This document shows positions 3,156-59,036 of a stretch of DNA of 64,000 nucleotides, in pieces; the first letter of the stretch is position 1, and each line of letters starts with the position of its first letter. The stretch covers positions 1 through 64,000 of the forward strand of contig JAGGAC010000004.1 in NCBI GenBank assembly GCA_017889635.1, written 5' to 3'. The notes beneath the pieces were generated by a model. The model was not told the origin of the DNA. It did no database searches and saw nothing but the letters and a program-made list of their open reading frames with translations. The stretch comes from Bacillota bacterium (GTDB lineage: Bacteria > Bacillota > Negativicutes > Sporomusales > CTSoil-080). Made by a program: the position numbers and the translations under genes.

Positions 3156-4076
3156 ATGTTAAGCTATTCGACTTTTTTCAGTACCATCTGTCGTATTTTT
3201 GTCGTCATTTTTCTTTTTTCGTCTCTTTCACCTCTTGCCGTACTGGCTTGGGATGATGAGAACATCCCTGACGATCCGGATATCACCACCTTGGCATCAC
3301 AAGTTGGAATTCCCAAAACAAAGGTTTCTCCGCCACCAAATGTCTGTTATCTTAGTGACATTCCTACGGTACCGCAATCAGGTATAGCATTATATGACGC
3401 TCTGACCTTGCCTCAACGGCAGAAGGCTGGACTGCCATTAGGTCTGCCGCAGGTTGCTCCGTACTACGGCCAAAAAGTAGTCTATCTCACCTTTGACGAC
3501 GGACCAGACCCGGATATTACTCCGCTAATCCTGGACATCCTTACAAAAGAAAATGTCAAAGCCACTTTTTTTGTTGTCGGAACGCAAGCAGAAAAATATC
3601 CTGCTATCCTGAGACGCATTTTCCACGCCGGCCACGCTATCGGCAATCATTCTTACAATCATGTATACCGAGATCTTTACCATTCTACAAATTCATTTAC
3701 CAGCCAACTCCAGCATACTGATGAAATTATTAAAGGAGTTATCGGCGTCCGCCCTGTAATTTGCCGCGCTCCCGGTGGAACAACAGGCACTTTTAGCAAG
3801 GAATATTGGAATGCTTTAAGTTCTCAGGGATATAAAGAAGTCGGCTGGAATATCGAATCTGGAGATGCTTCACACACCAAAGCCGACAAACTTATAACCA
3901 ATATAACTAACCAAATCACCAAACATAGTTTTCTCTGGAGTCATTCAATTGTTCTTATGCATGACGGCCGGGGCCATAGTGAAACATTGAAAGCCTTGCC
4001 TGATATTATAACCTTCTTCAAAACTGAGGGCTTTGAATTTCGAGTGGTTACTCTTGAAACCCCGCCTGCCTGGTAA
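3156..4076 (+). CDS. Secreted polysaccharide deacetylase (NodB/CE4 family)
   Basis: The protein has a signal peptide (hydrophobic stretch about residues 8-32) followed by a CE4 NodB domain from about residue 105. Metal and catalytic motifs are present: TFDDGPD (TFDDGP motif 1), NHSYNH (the HxxxH zinc pair), a RAPGG motif for the substrate groove, and LMHDGRG near the end supplying the catalytic His. Such enzymes remove N-acetyl groups from peptidoglycan or other envelope glycans. ATG 3156 follows GAGGGA by 7 bases. The gene stands alone on the plus strand and ends in a strong terminator. Its exact glycan substrate is unknown. Confidence 0.9.
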   Translation: MLSYSTFFSTICRIFVVIFLFSSLSPLAVLAWDDENIPDDPDITTLASQVGIPKTKVSPPPNVCYLSDIPTVPQSGIALYDALTLPQRQKAGLPLGLPQVAPYYGQKVVYLTFDDGPDPDITPLILDILTKENVKATFFVVGTQAEKYPAILRRIFHAGHAIGNHSYNHVYRDLYHSTNSFTSQLQHTDEIIKGVIGVRPVICRAPGGTTGTFSKEYWNALSSQGYKEVGWNIESGDASHTKADKLITNITNQITKHSFLWSHSIVLMHDGRGHSETLKALPDIITFFKTEGFEFRVVTLETPPAW

Positions 4077-4191
4077 TCATATTAAACAAGACGATTATTA
4101 AATACATAAAAAGAGAACCACAGACACTCCATCTATTCATTTCTAATTTGTCATTATGTGTATACCTGCTCTTTCTTTCTCATTATAAGGA

Positions 4192-4238
4192 TACCCCCAC
4201 TCGTAGTTCATTTTTTCTACGAATGGGGGTACTTTTTA
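4192..4238 (+). terminator. Rho-independent terminator of the deacetylase gene
   Basis: A 15-base stem (4192-4206 with 4217-4231, one G-T type mismatch) encloses a T-rich loop and is followed by a T run. It lies 115 bases after the deacetylase stop, in the convergent gap to guaB. Confidence 0.8.
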
Positions 4239-4315
4239 CTGTTCGACTTATCTGAGTTAGTTCATCCTTATAGTTTTTAGGCGGCTTTAATATACTGAAG
4301 CTAAGCTTCTAACTT

Positions 4316-5791
<1,476 letters not shown>

Positions 5792-5811
5792 TTAGTTTCA
5801 TCCGTATTTAA

Positions 5812-5839
5812 GTAATAATATCATATCTAAACAGGTCAA
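5812..5839 (-). promoter_or_regulatory. Possible guaB promoter
   Basis: On the minus strand TTGACC (5839-5834), a 16-base spacer and TATTAC (5817-5812) lie about 40 bases upstream of the guaB start. The -10 box is imperfect. Confidence 0.4.
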
Positions 5840-5929
5840 ATCCAGCTTTTTCTAACAGTTGCTGTAAAAATTTGTCCCAGTATCCCCAAGAGACATTACT
5901 CCAGTAATAAATCCCAACGTTTTGATTAA

Positions 5930-8900
5930 TTAATTCGAAGATTCGAATGTATTTTGCCATTTATAATAATCTTCCATCGCCCTGGCAACGTCAACACTTC
6001 CCAAAACTGGTGCCGCCAATAATCCAGCCTTCTCAAAAGGTGCTATATTCAGCCGTACCCCATAAGATGGGCGAACCTGCTGAATAATCACATTATCCAA
6101 CCGAAAAATAAAGTCTTCAAGCTCACTTACCTGGTAAGTCTTCTTAAGGTATTTTATTTGTTTCTGTACGCATAAGCGAACTTCCGGCAGACAATTAGCA
6201 TCATAGGCGTTGACAAAACAGGAAAAGGCCGGTTTTCCATACATTGGGCGACTAGCAAGCTGCCAAACAATAGGACGTTTACGAAACTGGATAATATGCC
6301 GCTTAAAAAAGTTGTTAGCCAGCCATACTTCTAACGAAACGCCAACAAAAGCCTCAAATTGAGCTTCAAGCATTGGCAGTTCACATACCGCTCCTATATA
6401 TTCACGCACAAAATCAACCACAATTTTATCTTCACCCATAGTAGTCAAAGGTATAAACGCACTTGAGGCGATTGTCTCCAACACCACTCTAGTTATTGCA
6501 TCCTCGGCAAACCGTTTTTCAATCATTCTTGATCGCCACCCTTCACAGGCAAGGCTATCAATTACAAGTGTGTAAATTGATATTGGATGAATCCTCAGTT
6601 TATGCGCCATTTCTTCCAACATAGTAACAAAATAAATCATTTCCTTATCAGGTCCGGCTTCATATATTTCTTTCAAACGATGTTTTATCGCCACTATCTC
6701 TTTTGCTTCGACTAACATACGGTGAGGACGCGGCATAGATATATCCTCAATCACCTTTGGTTCATAATCAAATATTACTGGGTGCTGACAAGCTATATAA
6801 CCGACTTCAGAGAAGATATCCTGGTTTTCAGACTTTGGCAAGTTCAAACTTTCAGCTAATTTGACGTCGATTGCATCCGTAGCCAAAATATATCGAAGTG
6901 CTGCTAACCATGCCTCAGAAAACTGATCAGTCATTTTTTCCGCCAGCGGGAAAAATTGTGTCAAGTCAAAGCCACATTCCCGATCAGTTATTTCCATCTC
7001 ATGTAGTCTGCCTGATGCTTCAGATGCGATCACCGCCAGTTTTCGCAGAATCCTATTAATCTCTTGTTCAAAACCGTGAACAGGCAACCGTTGTAAATCA
7101 GCGGGTTGATAATTAAGAGTAGGATTAAAGGCTTTTAGTATCCACTGGTATATTTTAGAATTCAATAGCGCTAATATAATCCATACGTCTTCATCCTTAT
7201 GTGGAAATACACAGCTAGCCGCCATATCGGTCATATGTCCGGAAGGAAGAAGTTTAGCGGTAAAAGCTTTACTGCTAATCTGCCCATAAACAATTCCCGG
7301 ACGTAACCAATACTTACGGTTTGGTAGCTGAGCCGAATAATGCCGTCTGTAATAATCCTGGGCAAAATCATTCCATAGAATAATATGGGCTGAATTTCGC
7401 TTAAACCGATAGCCACTGGCCTCCTTTTCATACGGTAGCCAGTTCGAAAAATTCCGACGTTCGCATCCTGGTAGTTCCCACCAGTACCGAACAAATCTCT
7501 TATTGTCCGAAGTCTTCATCCCAAGAACTATATCAGCATAGTCCTTTAACTGGCAGGATTCTCTTATCATACGAAGCACGCCGTTTCCAAGCCAATAGAC
7601 CACCGGTGATCCCGCTAAAAGAGTTATTTGGCGCTGAGACCGTATAAAAACCCCATCACTCTTCTCATCTTTGTTATGCCCATGTATCGACTTTAATAAT
7701 CCATTTGCTTTATCTTGTACACCCACTAACCTAAAATATACCCCAGGTTGATCGTCATTTAAAGCCAGAACAAACATTGCGGTATCGACAGAAACTTCGC
7801 GAAAAGCACCTAACCCTAAATGTCCTAACGTCCGGATAGTACCGCACTGAAACATGTCCTTCCTTAACTGACTGTAACTTTTAATAAACAGAAAAGTCTG
7901 AGGAGTTATCATCGCAACATAATGTTCAGCTAATTCCTGGCAACGGATAATGAACGCAGCATAAAGGTTGCCGGCACCAACTGAATAATGCCGCCGCAAG
8001 TATTCCCTTATCATAATAGGGTAGTTACGTTTGTCAATATACGGAGGATTAGTTGCAACCACATCATATTTATTTACCAACAGTTCGGCCAGCGAATTAA
8101 TTGGACTTTCAACCCTTAGCAAAGAACCTAATTCACCAGTGCCTGCCAACATATATTCATCCGCTGCAATAATGTGACGTTCAAAACCAAATTGCGCCGT
8201 CTCGAAAAAACCTGGTGCCGTCTCTTTAGCTCTTAACCAAAGCACTGCGCGAGTTACTTCCAACGCTTTTGCATCAATATCAATGCCAAATAAATTATTG
8301 CTTATAATTGATTCGCACGCTTCTTCTGCATTATAGCCGCCTGTCTCAGTATACATAAGGTATAATAAATCGAATGCCCCTAATAAAAAATTTCCGCAAC
8401 CGCAAGCTGGGTCCAGCACTGTTATTCTTTCAATCGGTTTCTCCTTAATACTTGGCCCATCAACTCTTTTTACATAGAATGGCAAACCGGCTACTATATT
8501 ACTCGCCGGATGCATTCTCCGCCACAAGGGGACAAGTGAATTCTGCAAAAGGAAATCAACCATATAAGGCTCGGTGTATATCTGAGTGATGGGGATAACT
8601 TCTGCTGCGGTAATTTTGGCGAATTTATCTATTCCTATTTTCGCTGAAATAGTTTTTCGTTCATCATCACGCCAATACTGATATAACCATCCCATAGCAT
8701 TAGTAAAGACAAACGCCCCTGCCACTTCGTTAGCGCAAAACAGACTGCGACACTCTCTCAGCACAGCTTCGTCTATTTGTTCAACAGACTTATCATTCAT
8801 AAGAAAAGCAGGTGCCGAACCATTAATTTGCCTAACCCTCATTGATGCCTCTAATCCCAGCTTAAACGCCCAATACCAAGCTTGATCACCAGCATCTTTT

Positions 8901-8986
8901 GCTCCGCATTTTTTAAAATAGCCCTCAAGAGTCTGACGCAACCTAGCAGTCATATCCCTAAGCTTCTTTCTGCCATAATTTTTCAT
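5930..8986 (-). CDS. PglX/Eco57I-like adenine-specific DNA methyltransferase
   Basis: A 1018-residue N6-adenine methyltransferase-type protein. The catalytic domain begins with the TQIYTEPYMVDFLLQN helix typical of the PglX/Eco57I group; motif I is DPACGCGNFLLG (about 192-203) and motif IV is the catalytic NPPY (about 313-316). A second half beginning at GMKTSDNKRFVRYWWE, with ISSKAFTA and LLNSKIYQWIL, resembles the target-recognition part of BREX PglX and type IIL enzymes, and the NFFKRHIIQFRKRPI block is also typical of the PglX C-terminus. No PD-(D/E)xK nuclease is evident at the N-terminus, and none of brxA, brxB, brxC, pglZ or brxL is present in the window, so it is an orphan here. ATG 8986 follows GAGGTG; the upstream TTG 9007 is less likely. 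Confidence 0.8.
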   Translation of the reverse strand: MKNYGRKKLRDMTARLRQTLEGYFKKCGAKDAGDQAWYWAFKLGLEASMRVRQINGSAPAFLMNDKSVEQIDEAVLRECRSLFCANEVAGAFVFTNAMGWLYQYWRDDERKTISAKIGIDKFAKITAAEVIPITQIYTEPYMVDFLLQNSLVPLWRRMHPASNIVAGLPFYVKRVDGPSIKEKPIERITVLDPACGCGNFLLGAFDLLYLMYTETGGYNAEEACESIISNNLFGIDIDAKALEVTRAVLWLRAKETAPGFFETAQFGFERHIIAADEYMLAGTGELGSLLRVESPINSLAELLVNKYDVVATNPPYIDKRNYPIMIREYLRRHYSVGAGNLYAAFIIRCQELAEHYVAMITPQTFLFIKSYSQLRKDMFQCGTIRTLGHLGLGAFREVSVDTAMFVLALNDDQPGVYFRLVGVQDKANGLLKSIHGHNKDEKSDGVFIRSQRQITLLAGSPVVYWLGNGVLRMIRESCQLKDYADIVLGMKTSDNKRFVRYWWELPGCERRNFSNWLPYEKEASGYRFKRNSAHIILWNDFAQDYYRRHYSAQLPNRKYWLRPGIVYGQISSKAFTAKLLPSGHMTDMAASCVFPHKDEDVWIILALLNSKIYQWILKAFNPTLNYQPADLQRLPVHGFEQEINRILRKLAVIASEASGRLHEMEITDRECGFDLTQFFPLAEKMTDQFSEAWLAALRYILATDAIDVKLAESLNLPKSENQDIFSEVGYIACQHPVIFDYEPKVIEDISMPRPHRMLVEAKEIVAIKHRLKEIYEAGPDKEMIYFVTMLEEMAHKLRIHPISIYTLVIDSLACEGWRSRMIEKRFAEDAITRVVLETIASSAFIPLTTMGEDKIVVDFVREYIGAVCELPMLEAQFEAFVGVSLEVWLANNFFKRHIIQFRKRPIVWQLASRPMYGKPAFSCFVNAYDANCLPEVRLCVQKQIKYLKKTYQVSELEDFIFRLDNVIIQQVRPSYGVRLNIAPFEKAGLLAAPVLGSVDVARAMEDYYKWQNTFESSN

Positions 8987-9100
8987 CTCGCACCTCAGCG
9001 CAAGCATTCCGAAATAATTATTAGAATATTTCGTTATAAAAACTCATACTCCTACCAAGCTATATTTACCCCTAACAAAATTAATATTCTAATAGACTAA

Positions 9101-9142
9101 AGGCAGGTCGGACCTAATTAGACTTTTAGGCTTGACCTGCCT
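9101..9142 (-). terminator. Hairpin after the 9212-9709 gene
   Basis: The 9-base arms 9101-9109 and 9134-9142 are perfect inverted repeats, with an inner 5-base stem (9113-9117 with 9126-9130). Read on the minus strand it is followed by a short T-rich stretch, so it probably ends the transcript of the gene at 9212-9709. Confidence 0.5.
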
Positions 9143-9211
9143 TCATACTATATTATACATACACTTTTACTTTTTACATACCGAACTCATATTGACCACG
9201 ATAATAAAAGG

Positions 9212-9709
9212 TTAGTCTTTGCCAATCACAAATGGTGCAAAACCAACCTGAGCCCATACTTCGTTATACATCCCCCGCAACACTCCATCAATGCGCCGCC
9301 GGAGAATTATCTTGATTTCAGCCAGCGAACTAAGAAAGATCCTAGCTGTTGGATAGGGGCAGTTAAGAAGGGCCTGCTGATAAAACTGCCGAGAATTTTC
9401 AATTAGCGCAATAATCATCCATAAATTGGTCAAATTAGCAACTGATTTATCACCTGACAAAGTAAAGCTTTTTATCGCTTGCTGCCATTCACCATCAGAA
9501 CCCAATAACACATTAACAGGCACCTCTGGATATTTTCCATTGCTTACATCAATACTGCACGCTCGATCAAGCAGAAGCTCAAATTCAGCTTGAAACCTGC
9601 TTACAATATCCAATACTAGCTGCAATTCCGCGGATGCCTGCTTGGCTATGTGTTCAACCTCATGGCGAATGCTAGCCTCTAAAACCACAGCAAAACGCAA
9701 TTCTTTCAT
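9212..9709 (-). CDS. Hypothetical protein, helical
   Basis: I do not recognise this 165-residue protein. It starts MKELRFAVV at ATG 9709, with AGGAGG 9 bases upstream. It has no signal peptide or membrane segment. The sequence reads as mostly alpha-helical, with conserved-looking His/Glu near the N-terminus (ASIRHEVEHIAKQA) and a later SRQFYQQALLNCPYPTARIFLSSLAEIK region cut by helices. The HExxH-like order is absent (it reads HEVEH, H-E-x-E-H), so I do not call a metalloprotease. It sits upstream of the methyltransferase in the same direction but is separated by a hairpin. Confidence 0.6.
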   Translation of the reverse strand: MKELRFAVVLEASIRHEVEHIAKQASAELQLVLDIVSRFQAEFELLLDRACSIDVSNGKYPEVPVNVLLGSDGEWQQAIKSFTLSGDKSVANLTNLWMIIALIENSRQFYQQALLNCPYPTARIFLSSLAEIKIILRRRIDGVLRGMYNEVWAQVGFAPFVIGKD

Positions 9710-9845
9710 ACGGCGATTCCTCCTCAAACACAAGCCTGTGTAACATTACTTGTCAGGCTACTTTGATATTTTATTCGGCGATGAGTATATTATCCCTGCC
9801 ATAATCAAGATTACCTTCTTAAAGGACATACAAAATTAGCTTTAA

Positions 9846-10502
9846 TTAAGGAATTAAAATTGAAGTCAAGGTTTTTAGATTAATCCAGGCCCGGAATGTT
9901 CCGAAAAGCGGCAAAATTCCGCCTGTAAACGGTGCGCCAAATACGTTTAGTGCACCAATAGTAACCATCAACGGAGCCGCACTTGTTCCAGGACCAAATA
10001 GGATTACACATTCGTCAACTTCACTAAGTTGACCGCCAATTACCCAGCCTCCCATGAGTAGAACCCCCATATTCTGGCCATCAAATTCTTCTAATTGCTC
10101 CAGCAATCGACTTTGCTGACGCACATAGGTACCTGTACTTTTAGGTTTCACCGGCGATTTGGGAGCACTAATCTGGGTATTGGCTGCGCCACATGCCTTA
10201 CTGATTGGAGGAATAATGTACGGCCCTTCTATCGCTGCCGCAATATTGCATATGTCAATCAGAGCTTCACTTAGTAATATGTCAAATTCAGGGAGGGTAG
10301 CGTTAGGTGGGCGAAACCGCACAGTGTTAACACCGCTTAGGCCAACCGCCGGCAACACACTTATAACCCAATCATCTATGCCGCCTAGTCGCCCAAATAC
10401 AGCTGAACCGTCTAAAAGTAAAAGCAACACATTTCGCCCAGCCAGCCCCTTAAGCTCCCTAGCGAAATCCCTGTTGCAATAGTGGTGTAATCCTGTATTC
10501 AT
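9846..10502 (-). CDS. Hypothetical protein with two repeated domains
   Basis: An unrecognised 218-residue protein with an internal duplication. Residues of about 15-60 (containing LAGRNVLLLLLDGSAVFGRLGGIDDWVI) and about 135-190 (FDGQNMGVLLMGGWVIGGQLSEVDECVI, here described as one stretch of matching order) share a hydrophobic strand, a G-x-x-x-G turn, a strand ending in L-x-x-[IV]-D and a final V-I strand. The halves are joined by a Pro/Lys/Ser-rich linker. The pattern suggests a pair of small beta-barrel (SH3 or LSm-like) domains, which is inference. ATG 10502 follows GGAGG by 7 bases. Its function is unknown. Confidence 0.6.
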   Translation of the reverse strand: MNTGLHHYCNRDFARELKGLAGRNVLLLLLDGSAVFGRLGGIDDWVISVLPAVGLSGVNTVRFRPPNATLPEFDILLSEALIDICNIAAAIEGPYIIPPISKACGAANTQISAPKSPVKPKSTGTYVRQQSRLLEQLEEFDGQNMGVLLMGGWVIGGQLSEVDECVILFGPGTSAAPLMVTIGALNVFGAPFTGGILPLFGTFRAWINLKTLTSILIP

Positions 10503-10605
10503 GCACAAGCCTCCTATTTCATAGCTAGTATAGCTTAATATAACTTATGCCGAATTTACAAAACATGTTACTATTTCCACCACCGCCAAAATCGAGCACT
10601 TCTGC

Positions 10606-10637
10606 AAAAAAAAACGCTGCCGTAGCCGCGTTTTTTT
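10606..10637 (-). terminator. Terminator of the TVP38-family gene
   Basis: An A-run, GC-rich short hairpin (CGC..GC CGTA GC..GCG) and T-run lie 13 bases after the stop of the gene at 10650. The A and T tracts extend the stem, so it may act in both directions. Confidence 0.65.
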
Positions 10638-10649
10638 ATCTTAGCAGGT

Positions 10650-11315
10650 TTAATTTCGCTTCTTTCGTTTTCGCCACCATAGCCAACCGTAAATTGCTAT
10701 TACTCCCAAAACAAGTGCAATCAATCTATATCCATGTTGTCCTAAATAGACAATATCATGCCCGATTAGGACTTTTATTACTACTGGCGGCAACTTACCA
10801 ATCAAAGTCGCCAACAAAAAATCCCGCACGCTAATCCGACTGATAGCTGCTACTGCAGTAATAATCCCAGACGGAGCCAACGGCAACAATCGAGCTATAA
10901 GGAGAGCACTAAAACCATTTGTGGCGCTATAATCATCAACCTGTTTAAGATACCTGCTTTTAGCAATCCATCCTTCCACACTGTTACGAAAGAAATAGCG
11001 CACAAGAACAAATGCAACAACTGCACCAATAAATTCGCCAGCCCAGGAAATGATAATCCCCCAAAAGAGACCATAGACAATGCCAGCTGCCCCAGATAAA
11101 ATCATGAATGGAAATACAATCGTAAAAGTCATTATAACAAAGAGAATTATGGTAACTAAAATTCCACTTGTTCCAAAAGAACGAAGGTATTCTGCCAGTG
11201 CCTCAATATCACCGTGTTCGATTATACTGTATGAATGCTGAAAAAACGCTGGTTGCCACCAGTATGCCAAACCAGCCAAACCAATAATAACTAACCAGCC
11301 CCAAATTTTACCCAT
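10650..11315 (-). CDS. TVP38/TMEM64 family (VTT domain) membrane protein
   Basis: A 221-residue integral membrane protein with about six hydrophobic segments and a basic C-terminal tail (RKRKKRN). The central FPFMILSGAAGIVYG and the following GEFIGAVVAFVLVRYFFR mark the VTT/SNARE-associated domain shared with DedA and TVP38 proteins. These are thought to act as lipid scramblases or transporters, but its cargo cannot be inferred. ATG 11315 follows AAGGAAG. It has its own terminator. Confidence 0.82.
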   Translation of the reverse strand: MGKIWGWLVIIGLAGLAYWWQPAFFQHSYSIIEHGDIEALAEYLRSFGTSGILVTIILFVIMTFTIVFPFMILSGAAGIVYGLFWGIIISWAGEFIGAVVAFVLVRYFFRNSVEGWIAKSRYLKQVDDYSATNGFSALLIARLLPLAPSGIITAVAAISRISVRDFLLATLIGKLPPVVIKVLIGHDIVYLGQHGYRLIALVLGVIAIYGWLWWRKRKKRN

Positions 11316-11395
11316 ATACTTTCTTCCTTTAAAACCTGATTTTCACATATGGACATAGCATACTAAATTTAGCGAAAAAAGGCAACCACAAAAAA

Positions 11396-11415
11396 ACAGC
11401 ACTTAATAGTGCTGT
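11396..11415 (-). terminator. Terminator overlapping the stop of the 64-residue gene
   Basis: The 7-base arms ACAGCAC and GTGCTGT form a hairpin followed, on the minus strand, by seven T. The stem begins at the last base of the stop codon of the gene at 11415. Confidence 0.75.
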
Positions 11416-11609
11416 CACTCAATCTCGCCCAGAAATATTTCGCACGACCCACCTAGCCAATGAACACAGTCTGGGCACCGTCTTAGGTAACGTTCCGGTG
11501 ACACATTGATAAGTGAGTAGCCATACCCCATGGCATTAATAATATGCTCAAACTCGCCGCATTCCCTCGCAATGTCTTGAACCTGTTTCTCGCTAAATTT
11601 TTCTTCCAT
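11415..11609 (-). CDS. Small Cys-containing hypothetical protein
   Basis: A 64-residue soluble protein with a helical first half and a C-terminal cysteine cluster CPDC-x6-C, plus one earlier Cys (RECGEF). The spacing suggests a small metal or disulfide site, but I do not recognise the family. It has a good promoter (11631-11659) and its own terminator, which supports a real gene. The ribosome binding site (TTAGGAA) is weak and close to the ATG. Confidence 0.55.
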   Translation of the reverse strand: MEEKFSEKQVQDIARECGEFEHIINAMGYGYSLINVSPERYLRRCPDCVHWLGGSCEIFLGEIE

Positions 11610-11630
11610 TTCCTAACACCATCCCAGTCG

Positions 11631-11659
11631 ATAATAATATTATTGTTTCCGAAATGCAA
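11631..11659 (-). promoter_or_regulatory. Promoter of the 64-residue gene
   Basis: Minus strand: TTGCAT (11659-11654), a 17-base spacer, and TATTAT (11636-11631), 22 bases upstream of the start codon. It lies downstream of recG, so the small gene is transcribed separately. Confidence 0.6.
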
Positions 11660-11702
11660 AACAATATAAACCTAATATTGTACTGATGGCGCGTATTTAA
11701 AA

Positions 11703-13751
11703 TTAATTATTGCGTATCATCCCAAAATAATTGCCAAAACGTTCGGTCAGAATTGGTTGAACGATAGCAAATTGTTCGCTGTCAACTACGGTTTGCTTGG
11801 CTGCTTTTCTTGCTTCAAGTAAAATATCGGTGTCATGAACAATATCAGCAATTTTCAGATCAGGCAGCCCATGTTGCCTCATGCCAAAAAACTGCCCTGG
11901 TCCTCGTAAGAGCAAATCTTTTTCAGCCAGTTCAAAACCATCGTCCACCTTTACCATGATATCCAATCGTTCTCTGGTTTCGGTATTTTCATTATCGGAT
12001 AATAAAATACAGTAGGATTGGTGTTCACCTCTCCCGATACGTCCGCGCAACTGGTGAAGTTGGGCCAGACCAAACCGATCGGCTCCTTCTATCACCATAA
12101 CACTGGCATTGGGTACATTAACTCCCACCTCAATAACAGTAGTTGCCACCAACACTTTTGTATCACCAGCGTAGAAGGCACTCATCACCCGGTCTTTTTC
12201 CTGGGATTTCATTTTACCATGAACAAGTTCGCAGGATATATTGGAAAAATGTGTCGCGGTCATCTGTTCGTACATTTGAATAGCAGATTTAGCCTCGAAC
12301 TTTTCCGATTCATCAACCAAAGGACATACCACATAGGCCTGACGCCCCGCATTCACTTCTTTGACTATAAAATTGTATACCCGTTGCCGCATTTCACTAC
12401 CTACGGAGTATGTCTTGATCGGCTTGCGTCCTGGAGGTAACTCACGGATAACCGAAACATCTAAATCGCCGTATACAGTTAGAGCCATGGTTCGGGGAAT
12501 GGGAGTCGCTGTCATAACCAAAACATCAGGCATCTTCCCTTTGGCCTGAAAGCTGGCACGCTGACGTACGCCAAAGCGATGTTGTTCGTCAGTTATAACC
12601 AGACCAAGCTGTTTAAATTCAACGTCATCTTGAATAAGAGCGTGTGTCCCTATCACTATATCCACTAGACCGTCCCTAAGACGCGACAAAACCTCCTGCC
12701 TGATGCGGCGCGTCAATTTGCCGGTAAGTACTGCCAGCCTAATACCTAACGGCGCCATTAACTCGGCCAGTGTATGATAATGCTGGTCTGCCAATATCTC
12801 GGTCGGAGCCATCATTGCACCCTGGTAACCATTTTCCACTGCTTTAGCCAAAGCAATTGCCGCTAGCACCGTTTTACCCGAGCCGACATCCCCTTGTATA
12901 AGTCGCTGCATAGGAACAACATCCTCCATGTCAACTTTGATATCGTTTAGCGCTTCCTGCTGATCACTCGTAAGTGTAAACGGTAAACCAGCTATCATTT
13001 TGGTTACTCTTTCACCGTCGACAGCATACTTAATGCCACTCCCATATTTCTGGCTTTTCATTTTTAAATTTAGCAAACCGCATTGTAATAGATACAACTC
13101 TTCAAAAACCAAGCGTTTTCGCGCTTCATTAAGAGACTCTTGATCTGGAGGAAAGTGAATATTATTAAGCGCCAAACGGCGCTCACTCAGTCCGAACTCG
13201 CTTATAATGTCAGGTGACAAAAAATCGCCAGGCGCACCGAAATCGTCAAGTGCTTGACGGATAAGTATTCTAAGCCAACGCTGACCAATATTTTCACAAG
13301 CCGGATATATAGGAACTATCCTACCGGTATGTAAAAGATCCGAACCGTCCATAACCTCCACTTCGGGGTGAGATATCTGGATCTGTCCGAACCTGCGCTC
13401 TACTTTGCCAGAGACAATTAAATCAACACCAGGTCTAAACCACTTTTTCACATATGGTTGATTAAACCAAACCAGTTGCGCTGAACCACTCTTATCCTGT
13501 ACAGTTACTTTAGTAATAGTAAGACCGCGCCGTGGTTTAGATTCTTGACAGTTAACAATGGTTGCTTGGAAAGTATCAACACTGTCATTAGTTAAAAGGC
13601 TAACGGATTTCAGCTGACTACGATCTTCATAACGCCGTGGGTAATGCTCCAATAGATCCCTGACAGTAAAAATATTAAGCTTAGCAAGTAAAGCAGCCTT
13701 TGCCGGTCCCACACCTTTAATATATTTTATGTTGGCCACCCAATTTTGCAA
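11703..13751 (-). CDS. recG: ATP-dependent DNA helicase RecG
   Basis: Branched-DNA helicase that remodels stalled replication forks and recombination intermediates. The wedge/OB domain is at about residues 50-165, followed by superfamily 2 motifs: Walker A GDVGSGKT, MMAPTEILA, the DEQH box in VITDEQHRFGV, TATPIPRT, and motif VI QLRGRIGRG. The length of about 680 residues is normal. The TTG at 13751 has AGGTG 6 bases upstream and yields MQNWVANIKYIKGVGP, so I prefer it over the GTG three codons earlier, which lacks a site. Confidence 0.95.
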   Translation of the reverse strand: MQNWVANIKYIKGVGPAKAALLAKLNIFTVRDLLEHYPRRYEDRSQLKSVSLLTNDSVDTFQATIVNCQESKPRRGLTITKVTVQDKSGSAQLVWFNQPYVKKWFRPGVDLIVSGKVERRFGQIQISHPEVEVMDGSDLLHTGRIVPIYPACENIGQRWLRILIRQALDDFGAPGDFLSPDIISEFGLSERRLALNNIHFPPDQESLNEARKRLVFEELYLLQCGLLNLKMKSQKYGSGIKYAVDGERVTKMIAGLPFTLTSDQQEALNDIKVDMEDVVPMQRLIQGDVGSGKTVLAAIALAKAVENGYQGAMMAPTEILADQHYHTLAELMAPLGIRLAVLTGKLTRRIRQEVLSRLRDGLVDIVIGTHALIQDDVEFKQLGLVITDEQHRFGVRQRASFQAKGKMPDVLVMTATPIPRTMALTVYGDLDVSVIRELPPGRKPIKTYSVGSEMRQRVYNFIVKEVNAGRQAYVVCPLVDESEKFEAKSAIQMYEQMTATHFSNISCELVHGKMKSQEKDRVMSAFYAGDTKVLVATTVIEVGVNVPNASVMVIEGADRFGLAQLHQLRGRIGRGEHQSYCILLSDNENTETRERLDIMVKVDDGFELAEKDLLLRGPGQFFGMRQHGLPDLKIADIVHDTDILLEARKAAKQTVVDSEQFAIVQPILTERFGNYFGMIRNN

Positions 13752-13849
13752 ATTTATCACCTCATCACAGCAAGGATTACCTAGTGATTCGTTAATCCTA
13801 ATACATACAGCAAATAAATCTTCATAGAATAAAGCAGAAAGCTTTCCTA

Positions 13850-14035
13850 TTAAAGTTTATTTAATTCCTTTAATAACTCTTCTACCTTAACAGCATGCAT
13901 TCTAGCCGCATTAGCGACTGTCTCTGTAGCCGACCCCATACAGCCTACACAACTCATACCATAGGCTGTAAAAATCTCTCTTGCTTTGGGACAGAGACGC
14001 AGAACTTCGATCAACGGCGTATCTTTCGTAATCAT
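13850..14035 (-). CDS. DUF1858 domain protein
   Basis: A 61-residue protein consisting of one DUF1858 domain: MITKDTPLIEVLRLCPKA, then a helix ending in YGMSCVGCMG, with the CxxC typical of the family. Such proteins often occur near redox or iron-sulfur proteins; its exact role is unknown. I chose ATG 14035, with AGGAGG 8 bases upstream. A second ATG at 14074 with GAAGGAG 13 bases away would add 13 residues that do not fit the domain. It is divergent from rpmB. Confidence 0.75.
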   Translation of the reverse strand: MITKDTPLIEVLRLCPKAREIFTAYGMSCVGCMGSATETVANAARMHAVKVEELLKELNKL

Positions 14036-14141
14036 TTGACAACCTCCTACGATGTTATCACTTTCTTTTTCCATCTTTATGCCGAAACTCCTTCCGTTGT
14101 ACCATACTCTTAATTATCTCGCCAATTTATCATTCCAGGCC

Positions 14142-14170
14142 TTGCATCAGCTAGACTGATATGGTAGAAT
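14142..14170 (+). promoter_or_regulatory. rpmB promoter
   Basis: TTGCAT (14142-14147), a 17-base spacer and TAGAAT (14165-14170), with rpmB starting 55 bases downstream after a strong AAAGGAGGTGG ribosome binding site. Confidence 0.7.
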
Positions 14171-14224
14171 ATTAACGTTATTGTGGCAAGAGTTTCTTGT
14201 CCTTCGTTAAAGGAGGTGGAATAA

Positions 14225-14416
14225 ATGGCCAATGTTTGCACTGTTTGTGGAAAAGGTGAGCGTAGCGGATTCAATGTCAGCCACTCGCACTTGAAAACCA
14301 AACGCACTTGGAAGCCCAACATCCAAAAAGTCAAAGCCGTGGTAGAGGGTGAAATAAAAAAGATTAATATTTGTACCCGTTGCCTCCGCTCCGGTAAAGT
14401 ACAACGTGCGATGTAA
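14225..14416 (+). CDS. rpmB: 50S ribosomal protein L28
   Basis: A 63-residue ribosomal protein. It begins MANVCTVCGKG and carries the CxxC near the N-terminus and a second CTRC pair (ICTRCLRSGKV), so this is the zinc-binding form. The NVSHSHLKTKRTWKPN segment is the L28 signature. It has its own promoter and terminator. Confidence 0.97.
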   Translation: MANVCTVCGKGERSGFNVSHSHLKTKRTWKPNIQKVKAVVEGEIKKINICTRCLRSGKVQRAM

Positions 14417-14421
14417 CAGCA

Positions 14422-14459
14422 AATAAGGTACGGCGAAAGCCTTGTGCCTTATTTTTTTT
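14422..14459 (+). terminator. rpmB terminator
   Basis: A ten-base stem with a GAAA-capped inner stem, followed by eight T, starts 6 bases after the rpmB stop. Confidence 0.85.
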
Positions 14460-14475
14460 GTATCCATTAACAATA

Positions 14476-14512
14476 AAAGGCGGCTTTCTCGATCTTAAAG
14501 AGAGCCGCCTTT
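14476..14512 (-). terminator. hslO terminator
   Basis: A 14-base GC-rich inverted repeat (AAAGGCGGCT arms), flanked by A/T tracts, 22 bases after the hslO stop. The symmetry means it could also back up the rpmB terminator. Confidence 0.75.
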
Positions 14513-14533
14513 ATCGTTTCTAGTTATCACTTG

Positions 14534-15409
14534 TTAAACTTGCGTTGGAAAGGCTTGCTCAAGTAGCCTTTTAAGCTGCGTGCGATCAAAATTGTATTTT
14601 TCGCCACAGAAATGACAAATGATTTCAGCCTCACCCTGCTCTACCATACCACTCAATTCTTCTGGGCCTAGGCTAACCAACATATTTTCTACCCTCGCAG
14701 TAGAACACTGACAATAGAATGCTAAGTTTGAAGAATCAAAAACCTTAGCCGACATACCGGCAAAAATTTGCTTGAGAATAGCGTTAGCGTCGCTACCCTG
14801 ATTAACAAGTTCTGATACTGGTGGCAGCGCCGCCAAATTTTTTTCTACCACCGCCAATACTTCATCTTCAGCACCAGGCATAGCTTGCACCAAAAATCCG
14901 CCAGCGGCTGCGACACTCAAATCAGAGTTAACTAAAACTCCTAATGCCACAGTAGATGGCGTCTGCTCAGAAACAAGTAGATAGTTAGCAACATCTTCGG
15001 CTATCTCACCGCTAATCAACGGTGCACTGCCAGTAAAAGGCTGCTTTAACCCAGTAAAGCGACGAACAAAAACGTTTCCAATTCCCACAGCGCTGCCCAC
15101 ATCAAGTTTTCTGCTTACAAGCGGCAAATCAACCTGAGGGTTTTCTACATACCCACGAACGGTTCCCTGAGAATTAGCGTCAGCTACTACTGTTCCTAAT
15201 GGACCGTCACCAGAAATACGTATCGTAATTGCTTCTTCAGTTTTTAAGTCAGCCGCCAATAATAGCGCCGCTGTCATCGTCCTCCCCAGCGCTGCAGTCC
15301 CCACCGGATAACAATCGTGTCTTCGCCGCGCCTCCTCCACCAAATTGGTAGTTACAGCCGCGAATGCCCGTACTCCAGAAACAGTAGCTCTTGCCAAATG
15401 ATCGCTCAT
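14534..15409 (-). CDS. hslO: Hsp33 redox-regulated chaperone
   Basis: A 291-residue cytosolic holdase that switches on under oxidative stress when its zinc-bound cysteines form disulfides. The C-terminal redox centre is complete: CQC near residue 240 and CHFC near residue 270 (CxC-x27 to 32-CxxC). The N-terminal SDHLARATVSG and the DGPLGTVVADA segment are family hallmarks. ATG 15409 follows GGAGGAG by 2 to 5 bases. Confidence 0.96.
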   Translation of the reverse strand: MSDHLARATVSGVRAFAAVTTNLVEEARRRHDCYPVGTAALGRTMTAALLLAADLKTEEAITIRISGDGPLGTVVADANSQGTVRGYVENPQVDLPLVSRKLDVGSAVGIGNVFVRRFTGLKQPFTGSAPLISGEIAEDVANYLLVSEQTPSTVALGVLVNSDLSVAAAGGFLVQAMPGAEDEVLAVVEKNLAALPPVSELVNQGSDANAILKQIFAGMSAKVFDSSNLAFYCQCSTARVENMLVSLGPEELSGMVEQGEAEIICHFCGEKYNFDRTQLKRLLEQAFPTQV

Positions 15410-15468
15410 AACTCCTCCTACATCAAATCGATATTTAATTGTTATTCAACTGCAGTCAATCTATAAAA

Positions 15469-15497
15469 AGTATAAGACTTACGAAAGTCAAAGTAAA
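15469..15497 (-). promoter_or_regulatory. hslO promoter
   Basis: Minus strand: TTTACT (15497-15492), a 17-base spacer and TATACT (15474-15469), 60 bases upstream of hslO. A second -35-like TTGACT lies within the spacer. Confidence 0.5.
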
Positions 15498-15526
15498 GTT
15501 CCATATGTCAGATTTAGCACAGTTAC

Positions 15527-15576
15527 AAAAAAGATAACTGCCTTGGAAAATTGTTTACCAAGACAGTTATCTTTTG
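15527..15576 (-). terminator. Terminator of the OFA transporter gene
   Basis: Arms of 18 bases (15529-15546 with 15558-15575, one mismatch) contain the AAAAGATAACTG/CAGTTATCTTTT match and are bounded by A and T tracts, so the hairpin ends the transcript of the gene at 15638. Confidence 0.8.
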
Positions 15577-15637
15577 TATGCTATGCAAAAACGATGCAAA
15601 TCGAATGATTTAATTCCTGCAAACCTCAAGTCAAATC

Positions 15638-16921
15638 TTACATATTGGCCATTTCAATAGCTGTACGCTGCTCTTTCGATACCAGAGCCGCAATAATCCC
15701 TAGTACGCTAACCACAGCTACAATCGCGAAAGATATATGGTACGTTCCGCTAGTTTTCAGCGCATAGGATCCAATCATAACGCCAAATGCCCCAACGAAA
15801 TTACTGACGCTAGTCCAAGTAGCTGCCACCTTGCCAATTACTTCCGGTGAAAAGCTCTTGACAGCAAAATACTGGTTGCCTACTGCAGTAAATGGGTTGA
15901 CAAAGCCAGCCGCTAATAACCATACTGTGAGCACAGCAGGATTGCTATAGATCGAATGTAACAATATTCCGTTAAAAAAGATTAAATTGCATACAAACCC
16001 GGCTATTACCAATACTCCTGACTTTCCCTTAAAAACTTTGTCAATGACAAGCCCGCCAATAAATATACCAAACAAGACACCAACCCACGTACCAGAAGAA
16101 AATTGTCCCGCGGCTTCAGGTCCATAGCCAACACCAACAGGCGGCTCTACAGCCAAATACCCTGGACTCAGATCATTAAATGCATTGTTTGCCCAAACGC
16201 TGAGCGCCATAACTGCCAGACCAAGCCAGAAGGCCGGATTATGCTTAATAACCTGCCAAAAATCACCTTCAGAAGTGGCATCACCAGACGACTCCACATG
16301 ACTATTTGGCGCCTGATAATTTTTCGCAGCAATTGATACAGCAAGAATAAACAAAAAACCAACTAGCAAAATAGTTGACATCCAAGCTATCCCGACTTGC
16401 CAACTACCAGCGCGTTGAACAAGTGCCGGCCCAAGGATAAACCCGCATATTGCCCCCAACATAGTAAGAGCGTTTAAACCCAGTGCCAAGCCCCGCTCCT
16501 TCTCTGAGAACCAAAGTGATACTACTGGGTTAATAACGATCAGGCCAACCGCTCCTCCCAAGGCCGTTAATACCCGTAGAAAAACCACACCATCATAACT
16601 ATGCCCAATAAAGGGATAAGCAGTATTGGCAACAATAAGCACTGCCATACTGCCTACCATTACCTTAAATACGCCAAACTTGTCCAGAAGATATCCTGCG
16701 ATCATAACTCCTACAGCAGTGGAAAAAATATTGAGTCCCATGATGCCAAAGGATGCCGTGCCAATATCTACGCCGAGATCTTTGGCGATTACTCCCATTA
16801 ACGGAGCTACAGCCAAACCAGTCATCATTGAAAAAATCATCATTAGTATCCCTGAAGCTAATACAAACCACCTAAAAGTCGGATATTTCTCCGAATTACA
16901 ACAATTATCTTTGCTACTCAT
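15638..16921 (-). CDS. OFA-type MFS transporter
   Basis: A 427-residue major facilitator with 12 predicted membrane helices. The helix 1 segment GILMMIFSMMTGLAVAPLMG, the GYLLDKFGVFKV loop (motif A-like) and the FSEKERGLALG loop after helix 4 fit the oxalate/formate antiporter family, which mostly moves small carboxylates. A Cys/Asn-rich N-terminus (SSKDNCCNSEKY) precedes the first helix. The gene is next to a VOC protein and a zinc alcohol dehydrogenase, so import of a small organic acid or related compound is plausible; the substrate is unknown. ATG 16921 has AAGGA about 10 bases upstream. Confidence 0.82.
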   Translation of the reverse strand: MSSKDNCCNSEKYPTFRWFVLASGILMMIFSMMTGLAVAPLMGVIAKDLGVDIGTASFGIMGLNIFSTAVGVMIAGYLLDKFGVFKVMVGSMAVLIVANTAYPFIGHSYDGVVFLRVLTALGGAVGLIVINPVVSLWFSEKERGLALGLNALTMLGAICGFILGPALVQRAGSWQVGIAWMSTILLVGFLFILAVSIAAKNYQAPNSHVESSGDATSEGDFWQVIKHNPAFWLGLAVMALSVWANNAFNDLSPGYLAVEPPVGVGYGPEAAGQFSSGTWVGVLFGIFIGGLVIDKVFKGKSGVLVIAGFVCNLIFFNGILLHSIYSNPAVLTVWLLAAGFVNPFTAVGNQYFAVKSFSPEVIGKVAATWTSVSNFVGAFGVMIGSYALKTSGTYHISFAIVAVVSVLGIIAALVSKEQRTAIEMANM

Positions 16922-17258
16922 CTGCCTAATTCCTTTCGTTACTATAAAACCGCACTTCGCTATCTAATCCTTGCGGTTCATATTACATAAATTACCATAA
17001 ATGAACGGTATTTTGTTCACACTTATACGCCATTTACATTGGTTAAAAATTTAAGCCATAAAACAAACTGCCATAAGCATTGTTGCCTCTGGCAGTTTGC
17101 CATAATCCACTATCTCTATCTGGTGCTTATATAGCCCCTGTATTGCTGAAGATGGTCAGATTCTGGTCGATCCAAGAGGAATTCACAGACAAAACCTATA
17201 AGGTTCATATAAGAAGACTTATCCCACAATTGTAACCCATTTCAACTTACTAAACAGT
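16922..17258. other. Intergenic region with terminator, operator-like repeat and ORF remnant
   Basis: This 337-base gap holds an inverted repeat TGAAC-N8-GTTCA at 17002-17019, upstream of the transporter; a terminator at 17064-17099; and a coding-like open frame at 17116-17241 on the minus strand that looks like a decayed gene end. No RNA gene was seen. Confidence 0.5.
17064..17099 (-). terminator. Terminator after the VOC gene
   Basis: Perfect 10-base arms (CAAACTGCCA / TGGCAGTTTG) followed on the minus strand by TTTT, 160 bases after the VOC stop. Confidence 0.65.
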
Positions 17259-17690
17259 CTATTCTGGTTTTTGGATAAGTTCAATTAAATTTCCGGTATT
17301 ATCCCTGATGAATGATACTAAATCGCCTGCCATCGGGAAAACATCCATAGCTACCTCTGCACCTTTGGTTTTCAAATCAACCATTAGACTGCGGAGATCT
17401 TTTACTTCATAAGCGACATGTTTTGTTCCATGAGTCCGAATATCAAGGTTTGGAGTACGCCGATCTTCTGGCAGCGAAGCAGCTCCTTCTACTTCAAACA
17501 ACTCTATACTAAAATCGCCGAGTTCAAGAAATGCAATCCGTGCAGGCAATTGAGGAACGAAATTATCTGATACAAGTTTGAAACCGAACATTTTTTGATA
17601 CCATGCTATTGAAGCTTCGATATCCGGTACGCTAATTCCCTGATGTAAGGGCTTGATAACAGGTTCTGAACATTTATTACAGTTTGCCAT
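17259..17690 (-). CDS. VOC superfamily protein (glyoxalase/bleomycin-resistance fold)
   Basis: A 143-residue single-unit VOC protein. The paired beta-alpha-beta-beta-beta modules are visible: HQGISVPDIEASIAWYQKMFGF and later HVAYEVKDLRSLMVDLKTKGAE, ending SFIRDNTGNLIELIQ. Candidate metal ligands are His in HQGIS, Glu in FSIELFE, His in TKHVAYE and Glu in LIELIQ, the usual one-His/one-Glu per half pattern. Family roles range from methylmalonyl-CoA epimerase to lactoylglutathione lyase; the substrate is not known. It lies about 100 bases behind the alcohol dehydrogenase, probably in one transcript. ATG 17690 follows GGAGG. Confidence 0.82.
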   Translation of the reverse strand: MANCNKCSEPVIKPLHQGISVPDIEASIAWYQKMFGFKLVSDNFVPQLPARIAFLELGDFSIELFEVEGAASLPEDRRTPNLDIRTHGTKHVAYEVKDLRSLMVDLKTKGAEVAMDVFPMAGDLVSFIRDNTGNLIELIQKPE

Positions 17691-17787
17691 ATCTTTGACT
17701 CCTCCATTTCATTAGGCTATTGCCTTAGAAAATTTTTATTATTGTTTACTGCTCACTCAAAATCTTCATTTAAATGCGTTACGTTAT

Positions 17788-18837
17788 TTAGATATTACCG
17801 TTTGGCATAAGAAGAACACGTGCAAGCTCAAGTTTGCCTGTAGCAAGCTCTTCCAGTTTGTTGATCGCATCATCAAGTGGTGCCTTTAATATGGAATAAG
17901 GCTTGGTGTCCAGCTTACCCATACTAATAAGCGCGAATAGCATCGTAATTTCTTCCTTAGTGTAAGTAAAGGTAAACTTCAAATCATACTGGTAATGACC
18001 TAATGCCGCAGTTACCAACTGATAAGGGCGACCATCGTTACCGATAAGCATTACCTGTCCACTTGGCATACAGAGGTTAATGCAGGTATCGATGGATGAT
18101 GGATGTCCTGCAGCCTCAAAGCAAACCTGAGCGCCATTTGCCTGTGAAAGAAGTTCCTTTGCTTTAGCAATGTCATTCTCATTAGACGGATCAAAAGCAT
18201 AATCCGCACCTACTTCGAGAGCAAGTTTACGTTTAGACTCTAAGGGATCAAATGCGATTAAGTAAGTTGGCCCAGCCATCTTTGCAGCTTGGATAGCAGA
18301 AAGACCGATGGAGCCGCACCCTGATACGACAACACTATCGCCAACCTTCATGTCTGACCGACGAACAGCATGGAACCCAACAGCAAGAACGTCAAAGAGA
18401 ACCGCCTGTTCGAAACTTACATTATCAGGGATTATAAAAAGTTCATTTTGTGGAAATTTTGAAAGGACATATTCAGCATACGCGCCTTGTGTGTTAGGCC
18501 CAATGCCAATTGTATTTGGGAAACCGTTTATGCATGTGTTAGGTTTACCTGAATTGCAGGAATAACATTTGCCGCAATCACCAGGAGGTCCGACAGCTAC
18601 GCGGTCGCCGACCTTAACACAAGTAACGCCTTCGCCTATTTCATCAACATAACCAACTGCTTCGTGGCCAAGAACGAGTTCCCAGTTAAAGATACCTTCC
18701 ATTGAATAAGCATGAACATCAGTACCGCAAATACCACAATATGCAATCTTAACAACAACTTGTCCAGGCCCTGCTTGAGGTTTTGGTATGTCTATAAATT
18801 CCACATTACGTGGACCATGATACTTTACTGCTTTCAT
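17788..18837 (-). CDS. Zinc-dependent alcohol dehydrogenase (sorbitol/threonine dehydrogenase-like)
   Basis: A 349-residue medium-chain dehydrogenase. Catalytic zinc ligands are in CGICGTDVH and GHEAVG; the structural zinc site is four Cys in GDCGKCYSCNSGKPNTC. The nucleotide fold shows SGCGSIGLSAIQ followed by an acidic FDP at the end of the second strand, favouring NAD. Its C-terminal part is typical for polyol, threonine or butanediol dehydrogenases, but the substrate is unknown. ATG 18837 follows AAAGGGGGG by 5 bases; a GTG/ATG-like start 7 codons upstream lacks a site. It is divergent from the LysR gene at 19126, which is the likely regulator. Confidence 0.87.
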   Translation of the reverse strand: MKAVKYHGPRNVEFIDIPKPQAGPGQVVVKIAYCGICGTDVHAYSMEGIFNWELVLGHEAVGYVDEIGEGVTCVKVGDRVAVGPPGDCGKCYSCNSGKPNTCINGFPNTIGIGPNTQGAYAEYVLSKFPQNELFIIPDNVSFEQAVLFDVLAVGFHAVRRSDMKVGDSVVVSGCGSIGLSAIQAAKMAGPTYLIAFDPLESKRKLALEVGADYAFDPSNENDIAKAKELLSQANGAQVCFEAAGHPSSIDTCINLCMPSGQVMLIGNDGRPYQLVTAALGHYQYDLKFTFTYTKEEITMLFALISMGKLDTKPYSILKAPLDDAINKLEELATGKLELARVLLMPNGNI

Positions 18838-56112: not shown

Positions 56113-56886
56113 TTACACAAACTTTCGCATATGTCCTAAGGCAGCTTTTTCCAGCCTTGAAACCTGGGCCTGCGAAATACCAATTTCATCCGCGACTTCC
56201 ATTTGAGTTTTCCCTTCAAAAAACCGTAAAGTTAAAATATGTTTTTCCCGGTCACTCAATTTTCGAAGTGCTTCTTTTATAGTTACTCCTTCTAACCAAT
56301 TTAAATCCAGATTACGATCATCACTAATCTGATCCATTACATAAATCGGATCTCCGCCATCATGATATATTGGTTCAAATAAAGATATAGGTTCCTGAAT
56401 AGCATCCAGAGCAAATACAATCTCTTCTCTGGGTATTTTTAGCTCGTCAGCAATTTCGATGATTGACGGTTCGCGAGAAAATCTATTGACAAGCGAGTCG
56501 CGTATTTGCAGGGCCTTATAGGCAACGTCCCGCATTGATCTGCTTACACGAATAGGATTGTTGTCGCGAAGATACCTCCTTATTTCACCAATAATCATCG
56601 GTACAGCGTAAGTAGAAAATTTGACGTTTTGCGAAAGATCGAAGTTATCAATAGCTTTCATCAAGCCAATACAGCCAACCTGAAATAAATCGTCAACATA
56701 TTCACCGCGATTGTTAAACCGCTGAATTACGCTTAGCACCAGACGCAAGTTGCCATAAATCAACTGTTCGCGTACTTCGATTCTGCCTTGCTGCATTACC
56801 TCAAACAACTCACGCATTTTACCAGCTGATAAAACCGGGAGTTTTGCCGTATTGACACCGCAAATTTCAACTTTATTTATCAGCAC
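56113..56886 (-). CDS. sigG: RNA polymerase sigma factor SigG
   Basis: Late forespore sigma factor. The sequence KVEICGVNTAKLPVLS at the N-terminus is diagnostic of SigG; region 2 has YVDDLFQVGCIGLMKAIDNFD in parts, region 4 has EVADEIGISQAQVSRLEK. I chose GTG 56886, with GGAGGG 6 bases upstream; an ATG five codons earlier lacks a proper site. It is preceded by a SigF/SigG-type promoter, so it differs from the adjacent sigE transcript. Confidence 0.96.
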   Translation of the reverse strand: MLINKVEICGVNTAKLPVLSAGKMRELFEVMQQGRIEVREQLIYGNLRLVLSVIQRFNNRGEYVDDLFQVGCIGLMKAIDNFDLSQNVKFSTYAVPMIIGEIRRYLRDNNPIRVSRSMRDVAYKALQIRDSLVNRFSREPSIIEIADELKIPREEIVFALDAIQEPISLFEPIYHDGGDPIYVMDQISDDRNLDLNWLEGVTIKEALRKLSDREKHILTLRFFEGKTQMEVADEIGISQAQVSRLEKAALGHMRKFV

Positions 56887-56930
56887 TTTCGTCCCTCCCA
56901 TGAACGTCCAGCAGTTTATCTCCTACAAGC

Positions 56931-56959
56931 ATTATTACCAGCCCACAATCATTTTATAC
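56931..56959 (-). promoter_or_regulatory. SigF/SigG-type promoter of sigG-spoIIR
   Basis: Minus strand: GTATA (56959-56955), a 15-base spacer and GGTAATAAT (56939-56931), matching the forespore consensus GyaTA and GGnnAnAnT. It is about 45 bases upstream of the GTG start. Confidence 0.6.
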
Positions 56960-56968
56960 ACCCTTAAT

Positions 56969-57013: not shown

Positions 57014-57081
57014 GACTATTCTATAACTTAAAGAGAATCAAATAATAAATACCTGAAATGGTTCCGCTTGGCTTATTAGTT

Positions 57082-59012: not shown

Positions 59013-59036
59013 AGCAAATTGCCCCATTTAGATAAA

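Follow-up and report, generated by a model that had tools for sequence, protein, structure and literature searches.

The closest described relatives of the gene considered here are the DNA methyltransferases of bacteriophage exclusion (BREX) systems, PglX in Salmonella and BrxX in Escherichia coli. The gene itself encodes a 1018-residue PglX/BrxX-like N6-adenine DNA methyltransferase and lies on contig JAGGAC010000004.1 of a Bacillota bacterium (assembly GCA_017889635.1), the first 64,000 nucleotides of which were analysed and are called the window below. E. coli BrxX is reported to be composed of an N-terminal (residues 1–210), a catalytic (211–650), a recognition (651–837), and a C-terminal (838–1205) domain (PMC11842806). 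An insert in the catalytic domain (390–500), unseen in other homologs, is proposed to contact BREX partners. According to the same source, BrxX alone binds its site and does not methylate it; BrxX/PglX methylates only together with BrxB, BrxC, and PglZ, and the N- or the C-terminal domain is suggested to act as a lock. Salmonella PglX, too, is reported to have been inactive when alone (PMC11341690). PglX of Streptomyces coelicolor (BREX type 2, or Pgl) is described as having neither of the terminal domains of BrxX and as methylating in vitro (PMC11842806); it is part of a defence system. A PglX-like group, HG5, is reported to be persistent in Haloterrigena, where it is assigned the motif CTGGAG and N6-methyladenine (PMC10609329), so the general idea of persistent PglX-like enzymes has a precedent. 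HG5 and the window methyltransferase are both PglX-like and lineage-persistent; HG5 is archaeal, and the likeness drawn here concerns family type and persistence.

The methyltransferase in the window is a solitary and trimmed member of the PglX/BrxX family, encoded at one fixed place. The explanation that we favour, with moderate confidence, is that this PglX became free of BREX and was domesticated, now acting on its own as an N6-adenine methyltransferase of one fixed motif, probably in regulation or housekeeping. An earlier note on this DNA had described an orphan PglX/Eco57I-type enzyme of 1018 residues with motif I and NPPY and two same-strand upstream genes of 165 and 218 residues. All three open reading frames (ORFs) are indeed present on the same strand, and both motifs are intact. 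The longest frames have 1025, 173, and 220 residues, and the shorter lengths result from internal ATG codons; the sequence GAGGTG at 8991–8996, four bases 5′ of the methyltransferase ATG at 8986, favours the 1018-residue start. Across the orthologs described below, motif I reads DP[AS]CG[AC]G[NH]FLL. Searches with hidden Markov models bore out the proposed affiliation. The Pfam families Eco57I (74 bits), MmeI_Mtase (36 bits), N6_Mtase (29 bits), and TaqI_C (27 bits) all matched above their cut-offs, the NCBIfam BREX-1 PglX model scored 400 bits, below its cut-off of 500, and a BREX-2 PglX model scored just 42 bits. The best PADLOC model was PglX, at 365 bits, and the nearest solved structures were three BrxX/PglX chains (PDB 8c45, 8zek, and 9ewz; 164–167 bits). 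The protein has the core of a gamma-class N6-adenine methyltransferase, both motifs included, and an adjoining recognition domain.

The MmeI_Mtase match, as well as a 320-bit match to a PADLOC model labelled type IIG, would be in keeping with a single-chain restriction-modification enzyme of type IIG/IIL, similar to MmeI, which the earlier note had listed among its options. The analysis did not support this option. The Pfam search revealed no nuclease family in the chain, the N-terminus included. The first 120 residues are predicted to be all-helical (block means of the predicted local distance difference test, pLDDT, of 56–92 in an AlphaFold model that, built from a seven-row alignment, is poor as a whole, with a mean of 53), unlike the alpha/beta nuclease fold. 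The PADLOC model in question, PDLC03600, gives 1399 bits to L104, an ordinary PglX that receives 1477 bits from the PglX model; the type IIG label is therefore non-discriminating and may mislead annotation. No cognate nuclease was recognised among the genes neighbouring the methyltransferase, nucleases elsewhere in the genome not having been searched for. Altogether, we consider a restriction-modification enzyme hardly credible.

Full-length orthologs were found in seven genomes, including that of the window, which belong to two families of one order. Among 60 relatives searched, 18 gave matches, covering nearly the whole length in the seven only, and the next best scored 140 bits. At the class level (380 genomes, 28 with matches), the same seven scored 1601–1774 bits and the next 293 bits, and in the phylum (398 genomes, 39 with matches), the best match besides the window's own genome was at 278 bits. 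Named GTDB genomes yielded seven loci when scanned. Four were the same orthologs (metagenome-assembled Bacillota, Selenomonadales), and the others came from two Thermotogota, at 25–29%, and one Bacteroidales. Within these searches, the ortholog family is thus confined to two families of one order. None of 318 matching plasmid records covers 80% of the methyltransferase. Ten relatives from viral contigs match weakly, and the eight of these that gave an alignable PglX row retain the insert (101–109 residues). We recognised no description of the ortholog family in the literature on orphan or solitary PglX and on orphan methyltransferases, a survey from which subscription journals mostly fell outside.

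In all seven carriers, tblastn revealed the same gene order, hslO, recG, the 218-residue gene, the 165-residue gene, the methyltransferase, and guaB, in one orientation (the last named is an ORF that we take from its sequence to be guaB). In the five non-carriers in which both flanks were covered (G005, G008, G013, G015, and G021), recG, the 165-residue gene, and guaB follow in the same order and the methyltransferase is absent; in G010, recG and the 165-residue gene are present and guaB is absent from the stretch fetched. The two families comprise nine genomes, seven of which carry the methyltransferase. The other two, G018 and G020 (87% complete), belong to the same family as four carriers and are also without guaB, so their locus was probably not assembled. 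In a 41-row tree, the seven orthologs form one clade (support 100/100), with the copies of each family again forming one clade (100/98 and 100/100), and their guanine plus cytosine content tracks that of the host, at 42% in three genomes poor in these bases and 68–73% in four rich in them. The methyltransferase is persistent and vertically inherited in this lineage, as is expected of orphan methyltransferases. Orphan adenine methyltransferases conserved in a spore-forming lineage have a described example in CamA of Clostridioides difficile (PMC8187626). CamA differs in having 577–578 residues and in matching at 31 bits over residues 186–253 only, round motif I, and belongs to another family. 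Genes that by eye resemble a sporulation sigma factor, SpoIIGA, ftsZ, and ftsA lie at 56113–61319 of the window, on the same contig, and the host is therefore probably a spore-former.

PglZ was found in none of the seven carriers, searched as whole genomes, compared to three of three related BREX controls, where it lies near PglX. BrxC was likewise absent from all seven and present in four of four BREX controls, although one carrier, G002, is only 65% complete and its absences are weak. Of the 38 genomes across the phylum in which PglX was matched, 33 also have PglZ. BrxA, BrxB, and BrxL were not recognised among the listed ORFs of the window (the second listing comprised ORFs of at least 250 residues only), and no genome-wide search was made for them. 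The earlier statement that BREX genes are missing thus holds throughout the genome for PglZ and BrxC, and for the remaining three at the level of the window's ORFs. With regard to a place as DrmMI in the defence island system associated with restriction-modification (DISARM), the DUF1998/MZB domain, which is carried by DrmB of that system, was not detected in six carriers, among them the window's genome; in G011, it is present in two genes on another contig.

Domain lengths were obtained by aligning the seven orthologs to BrxX of E. coli HS. The N-terminal domain comprises 82–92 residues as compared to 210 in BrxX (118–128 fewer), and the insert comprises 24–31 residues as compared to 111 (80–87 fewer). 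The recognition domain is of nearly the same length (183–184 residues, with 187 in BrxX), and the C-terminal domain has 333–360 residues. The shortest insert among 42 other PglX rows is 53 residues; the Thermotogota pair, which was counted apart, has 32. Shortening of the N-terminal part is not unique to the orthologs: five of the 42 other rows have at most 116 residues there and some as few as 87, partly as a result of mechanically assigned starts. In a part of the C-terminal domain where the alignment is uncertain, the BrxX metal ligands D997 and D999 are gapped in all seven orthologs and D1012 is kept, while Y1113 of BrxX corresponds to a tyrosine in four orthologs and to a gap in three. 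The orthologs thus share with BREX-1 PglX/BrxX of E. coli HS and Salmonella a catalytic domain bearing both motif I and NPPY, the length of the recognition domain, and a PglX-type C-terminal domain, and differ from them in their catalytic identity of only ~28%, the short N-terminal domain and insert, and the lack of PglZ and BrxC in the genome.

The nearest relative of the orthologs in the tree is L137 of G279 (support 100/99; the deeper branch is weak, 85/49), a 1558-residue atypical BREX PglX with 43% catalytic identity and a similar C-terminal tail. Unlike the orthologs, L137 has an N-terminal domain of 211 residues, an insert of 128, and a longer C-terminal part, and its cluster also encodes BrxC (616 bits) together with a weak PglZ (34 bits), which argues for an origin of the orthologs in BREX.

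The part of the protein that reads the DNA is conserved among the seven orthologs and variable in BREX-1 PglX. On average, two of the seven orthologs are 41% identical in the N-terminal, 59% in the catalytic, 66% in the recognition, and 43% in the C-terminal domain. The ratio of recognition to catalytic identity ranges from 0.996 to 1.31 over all 21 pairs, with a median of 1.15, compared to a median of 0.71 for other PglX proteins (304 pairs among 38 rows, all at least 45% identical in the catalytic domain), where 11 of the 304 pairs reach 1.00; pairs in this comparison are not independent. The 38 rows are the other PglX rows without L100, L101, L106, L119, L122, L128, and L155; the last was set aside by genus, and L156 and L157 were kept in, in all three cases irrespective of PglZ. 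L113 had been dropped beforehand as a duplicate of L141, and L105, L116, L121, and L165 are among the rows that are partial. Positions aligned with the base-reading K681, D684, R751, Q784, and N823 of E. coli BrxX are occupied by L, K, P, M, and N, respectively, each of them invariant in all seven. The ratio of nonsynonymous to synonymous substitutions (dN/dS) was 0.23–0.31 for the whole gene in six pairs from one genus, indicating purifying selection. By domain, it was 0.18 for recognition, 0.22 for catalytic, and 0.33 for C-terminal, with the recognition value below the catalytic one in five of the six pairs.

These results bear on two other roles that an orphan enzyme of this kind might have. 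An active methyltransferase could be protective, its mark guarding the chromosome against restriction enzymes or BREX systems on incoming elements; for mobile elements, orphan methyltransferases with a DNA-protecting role are described in PMC12707154, and a fold deriving from BREX would suit such a role. A shield should track the changing motifs of its enemies, however, yet the recognition domain is the best-conserved domain and the gene stays at a fixed place among housekeeping genes, and so we regard protection as unlikely. The protein could also be a sequence-specific DNA-binding protein that has lost methylation or methylates only with an unknown partner, given that BrxX and PglX are reported to bind DNA or S-adenosylmethionine and to be inactive alone (PMC11842806, PMC11341690) and that the PglX-type C-terminal domain has been retained. 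Against this, NPPY is invariant in all seven orthologs, motif I is kept, and little remains of the regions for which contact with partners has been proposed, which makes DNA binding without methylation, or methylation that depends on a partner, improbable in our view.

A gene that is solitary, trimmed, conserved in its target reading, and held at one housekeeping spot probably provides a domesticated mark rather than defence. The course of events may have been as follows. A PglX/BrxX-type methyltransferase would have left a BREX system before the two sister families split, been stripped of large parts of the N-terminal domain and of the insert in the catalytic domain, and become fixed beside guaB. 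The conserved recognition domain probably binds one short asymmetric sequence, the adenine of which would be flipped out and methylated with S-adenosylmethionine without partner proteins, and the chromosome would thereby carry a mark that serves gene regulation or some other housekeeping function. The option of an epigenetic regulator, put forward in the earlier note, is supported. More tentatively, and with somewhat less than even confidence, we suggest that a BREX specificity subunit became a chromosomal epigenetic regulator: the loss of half of its N-terminal domain and of most of the BREX-specific insert ended the dependence on partners that keeps BrxX inactive, its recognition domain was frozen on one motif, and two families of spore-formers have been marked since their common ancestor. 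If so, this would clearly exemplify how a protein of defence can become a chromosomal mark fixed in a lineage, and a recognition domain conserved as well as the catalytic one would be an easily read sign of such a conversion in the sequence.

Several observations weigh against domestication as a stand-alone mark. BrxX and Salmonella PglX are reported to be inactive alone, and thus the ability to work alone must have been acquired, or else the enzyme must rely on an unknown partner. Also retained is the C-terminal domain, which is likewise suspected of holding BrxX inactive (PMC11842806). The genomes G146 and G380, considered below, keep the insert without having PglZ, so its loss is not required for living without BREX. 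The dN/dS values of the methyltransferase are above those of guaB (0.04) and recG (0.10), determined for one pair each, which indicates weaker purifying selection, and in one of the six pairs, the recognition-domain value exceeds the catalytic one. The sample is just seven genomes, of which two have a completeness of 65% and 96%, and the tree tool flagged unusual composition in several rows, among them five of the seven orthologs and L137. As a family without BREX in which the N-terminal domain and the insert are trimmed and the C-terminal domain is kept, the orthologs offer a comparison for the question of why BrxX is inactive alone; if they methylate alone, the C-terminal domain by itself cannot be the lock.

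The coordinates of the methyltransferase, its parts, and the neighbouring features are collected in Table 1.

Table 1. Features of the methyltransferase locus in the window (positions in the 64,000-nucleotide stretch; residues are those of the methyltransferase).
Feature	Position	Strand	Details
PglX/BrxX-like N6-adenine DNA methyltransferase gene	5930..8986	(-)	1018 residues; frame open up to ATG at 9007
Shortened N-terminal part	8705..8986	(-)	residues 1-94, by alignment to E. coli HS BrxX (210 there)
Motif I DPACGCGNF (S-adenosylmethionine binding)	8387..8413	(-)	residues 192-200, intact
Remnant of BrxX insert	8072..8164	(-)	residues 275-305; 31 residues vs 111 in E. coli BrxX
Motif IV NPPY	8039..8050	(-)	residues 313-316, intact; invariant in 7/7 orthologs
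Target-recognition domain	7070..7621	(-)	residues 456-639; best-conserved domain of the ortholog family
PglX-type C-terminal domain, diverged	5975..7054	(-)	residues 645-1004
guaB (IMP dehydrogenase), presumed	4316..5788	(-)	conserved flank, 3' side of the methyltransferase
Terminator-like hairpin between 165-residue gene and methyltransferase	9101..9142	(-)	-30.2 kcal/mol, z -7.5 by folding; weak T-run follows
165-residue gene, chromosomal neighbour	9212..9709	(-)	function not assigned by sequence
218-residue gene, chromosomal neighbour	9846..10502	(-)	weak LSM-like match

Neither upstream gene matched a family above the cut-off. The sole match of the 165-residue gene was to a PHROG of unknown function (E 0.02), and the 218-residue gene gave a sub-threshold LSM match (16.6 bits with a cut-off of 23.4). 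The 218-residue protein seems to consist of two similar halves with an LSM-like start, and its copy in G001 ends ~20 residues early; the AlphaFold model of this protein was useless (pLDDT 28). The earlier note had proposed that the two genes might form a compact defence module with the methyltransferase, or that the enzyme might be part of a reduced BREX-like system, and had suggested looking for the same three-gene set in homologous loci. The set does recur, in the same order and on the same strand, in every carrier. However, the 165-residue gene, which 19 of the order's 28 genomes possess, occurs in 12 of those 19 without the methyltransferase. Matches to the 218-residue gene were also found in 19 of the 28 genomes; strong ones (at least 138 bits) are restricted to the seven carriers and G005, three of the carriers (G004, G014, and G016) having a further copy elsewhere at 182–187 bits, and diverged relatives (27–36% identity) are present near the 165-residue gene in the non-carriers G008, G015, and G021.

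No other called gene separates the 165-residue gene from the methyltransferase in the window and in G001. Other genes intervene in the remaining five of the seven carriers. In G002, these are genes for an FAD (flavin adenine dinucleotide) oxidoreductase and a ferredoxin-like protein, and each of the other four has several. A terminator-like hairpin was predicted by folding in this gap in the window, and G001 has a different hairpin at the same place (−28.6 kcal/mol, z −5.1) with a better T-run; a pattern scan, in which loops could have no more than 8 bases, listed no terminator in this gap. The hairpins suggest that the methyltransferase is probably its own transcription unit, and since they are seen in both genomes examined and relatives of the two upstream genes occur at the locus without the methyltransferase, these genes are probably not its partners. 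The three-gene module was accordingly rejected on the grounds of synteny, independent occurrence of the 165- and 218-residue genes, and hairpins, and with PglZ and BrxC absent, we consider a compact defence module or a reduced BREX system very unlikely. The sole remaining point in favour of a module, the near-confinement of strong 218-residue relatives to carriers, is equally well accounted for by the shared ancestry of the two families.

The L137 locus contains, at 3741–18823, a BREX-like cluster with ORFs of 272, 200, and 940 residues and a divergent PglZ; the 940-residue ORF has a PHP/SMC-type look by eye.

A second PglX lineage without PglZ was found in G146 and G380, with the same gene recurring in G455. 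The trio has recognition to catalytic identity ratios of 1.05–1.09 and retains the insert. A rule that absence of PglZ implies trimming was considered and ruled out, as the insert has 130–131 residues in G146 and G380. Genes of this lineage (L145, at 8536–12003, L154, and L155) have a Sel1-type repeat gene and a dehydrogenase, both named by eye, as neighbours, and no BREX genes were recognised around the PglX of L145. In the Thermotogota, L100 (991–3960) and L101 (60–3029) encode a compact PglX-like protein of 989 residues with an N-terminal part of 77 and an insert of 32 residues; no BREX genes were recognised near them on these short contigs, where they have other neighbours. PglX may have escaped from BREX more than once, with lineages that are without PglZ or without visible BREX neighbours occurring also in the Thermotogota and in the genus of G146 and G380.

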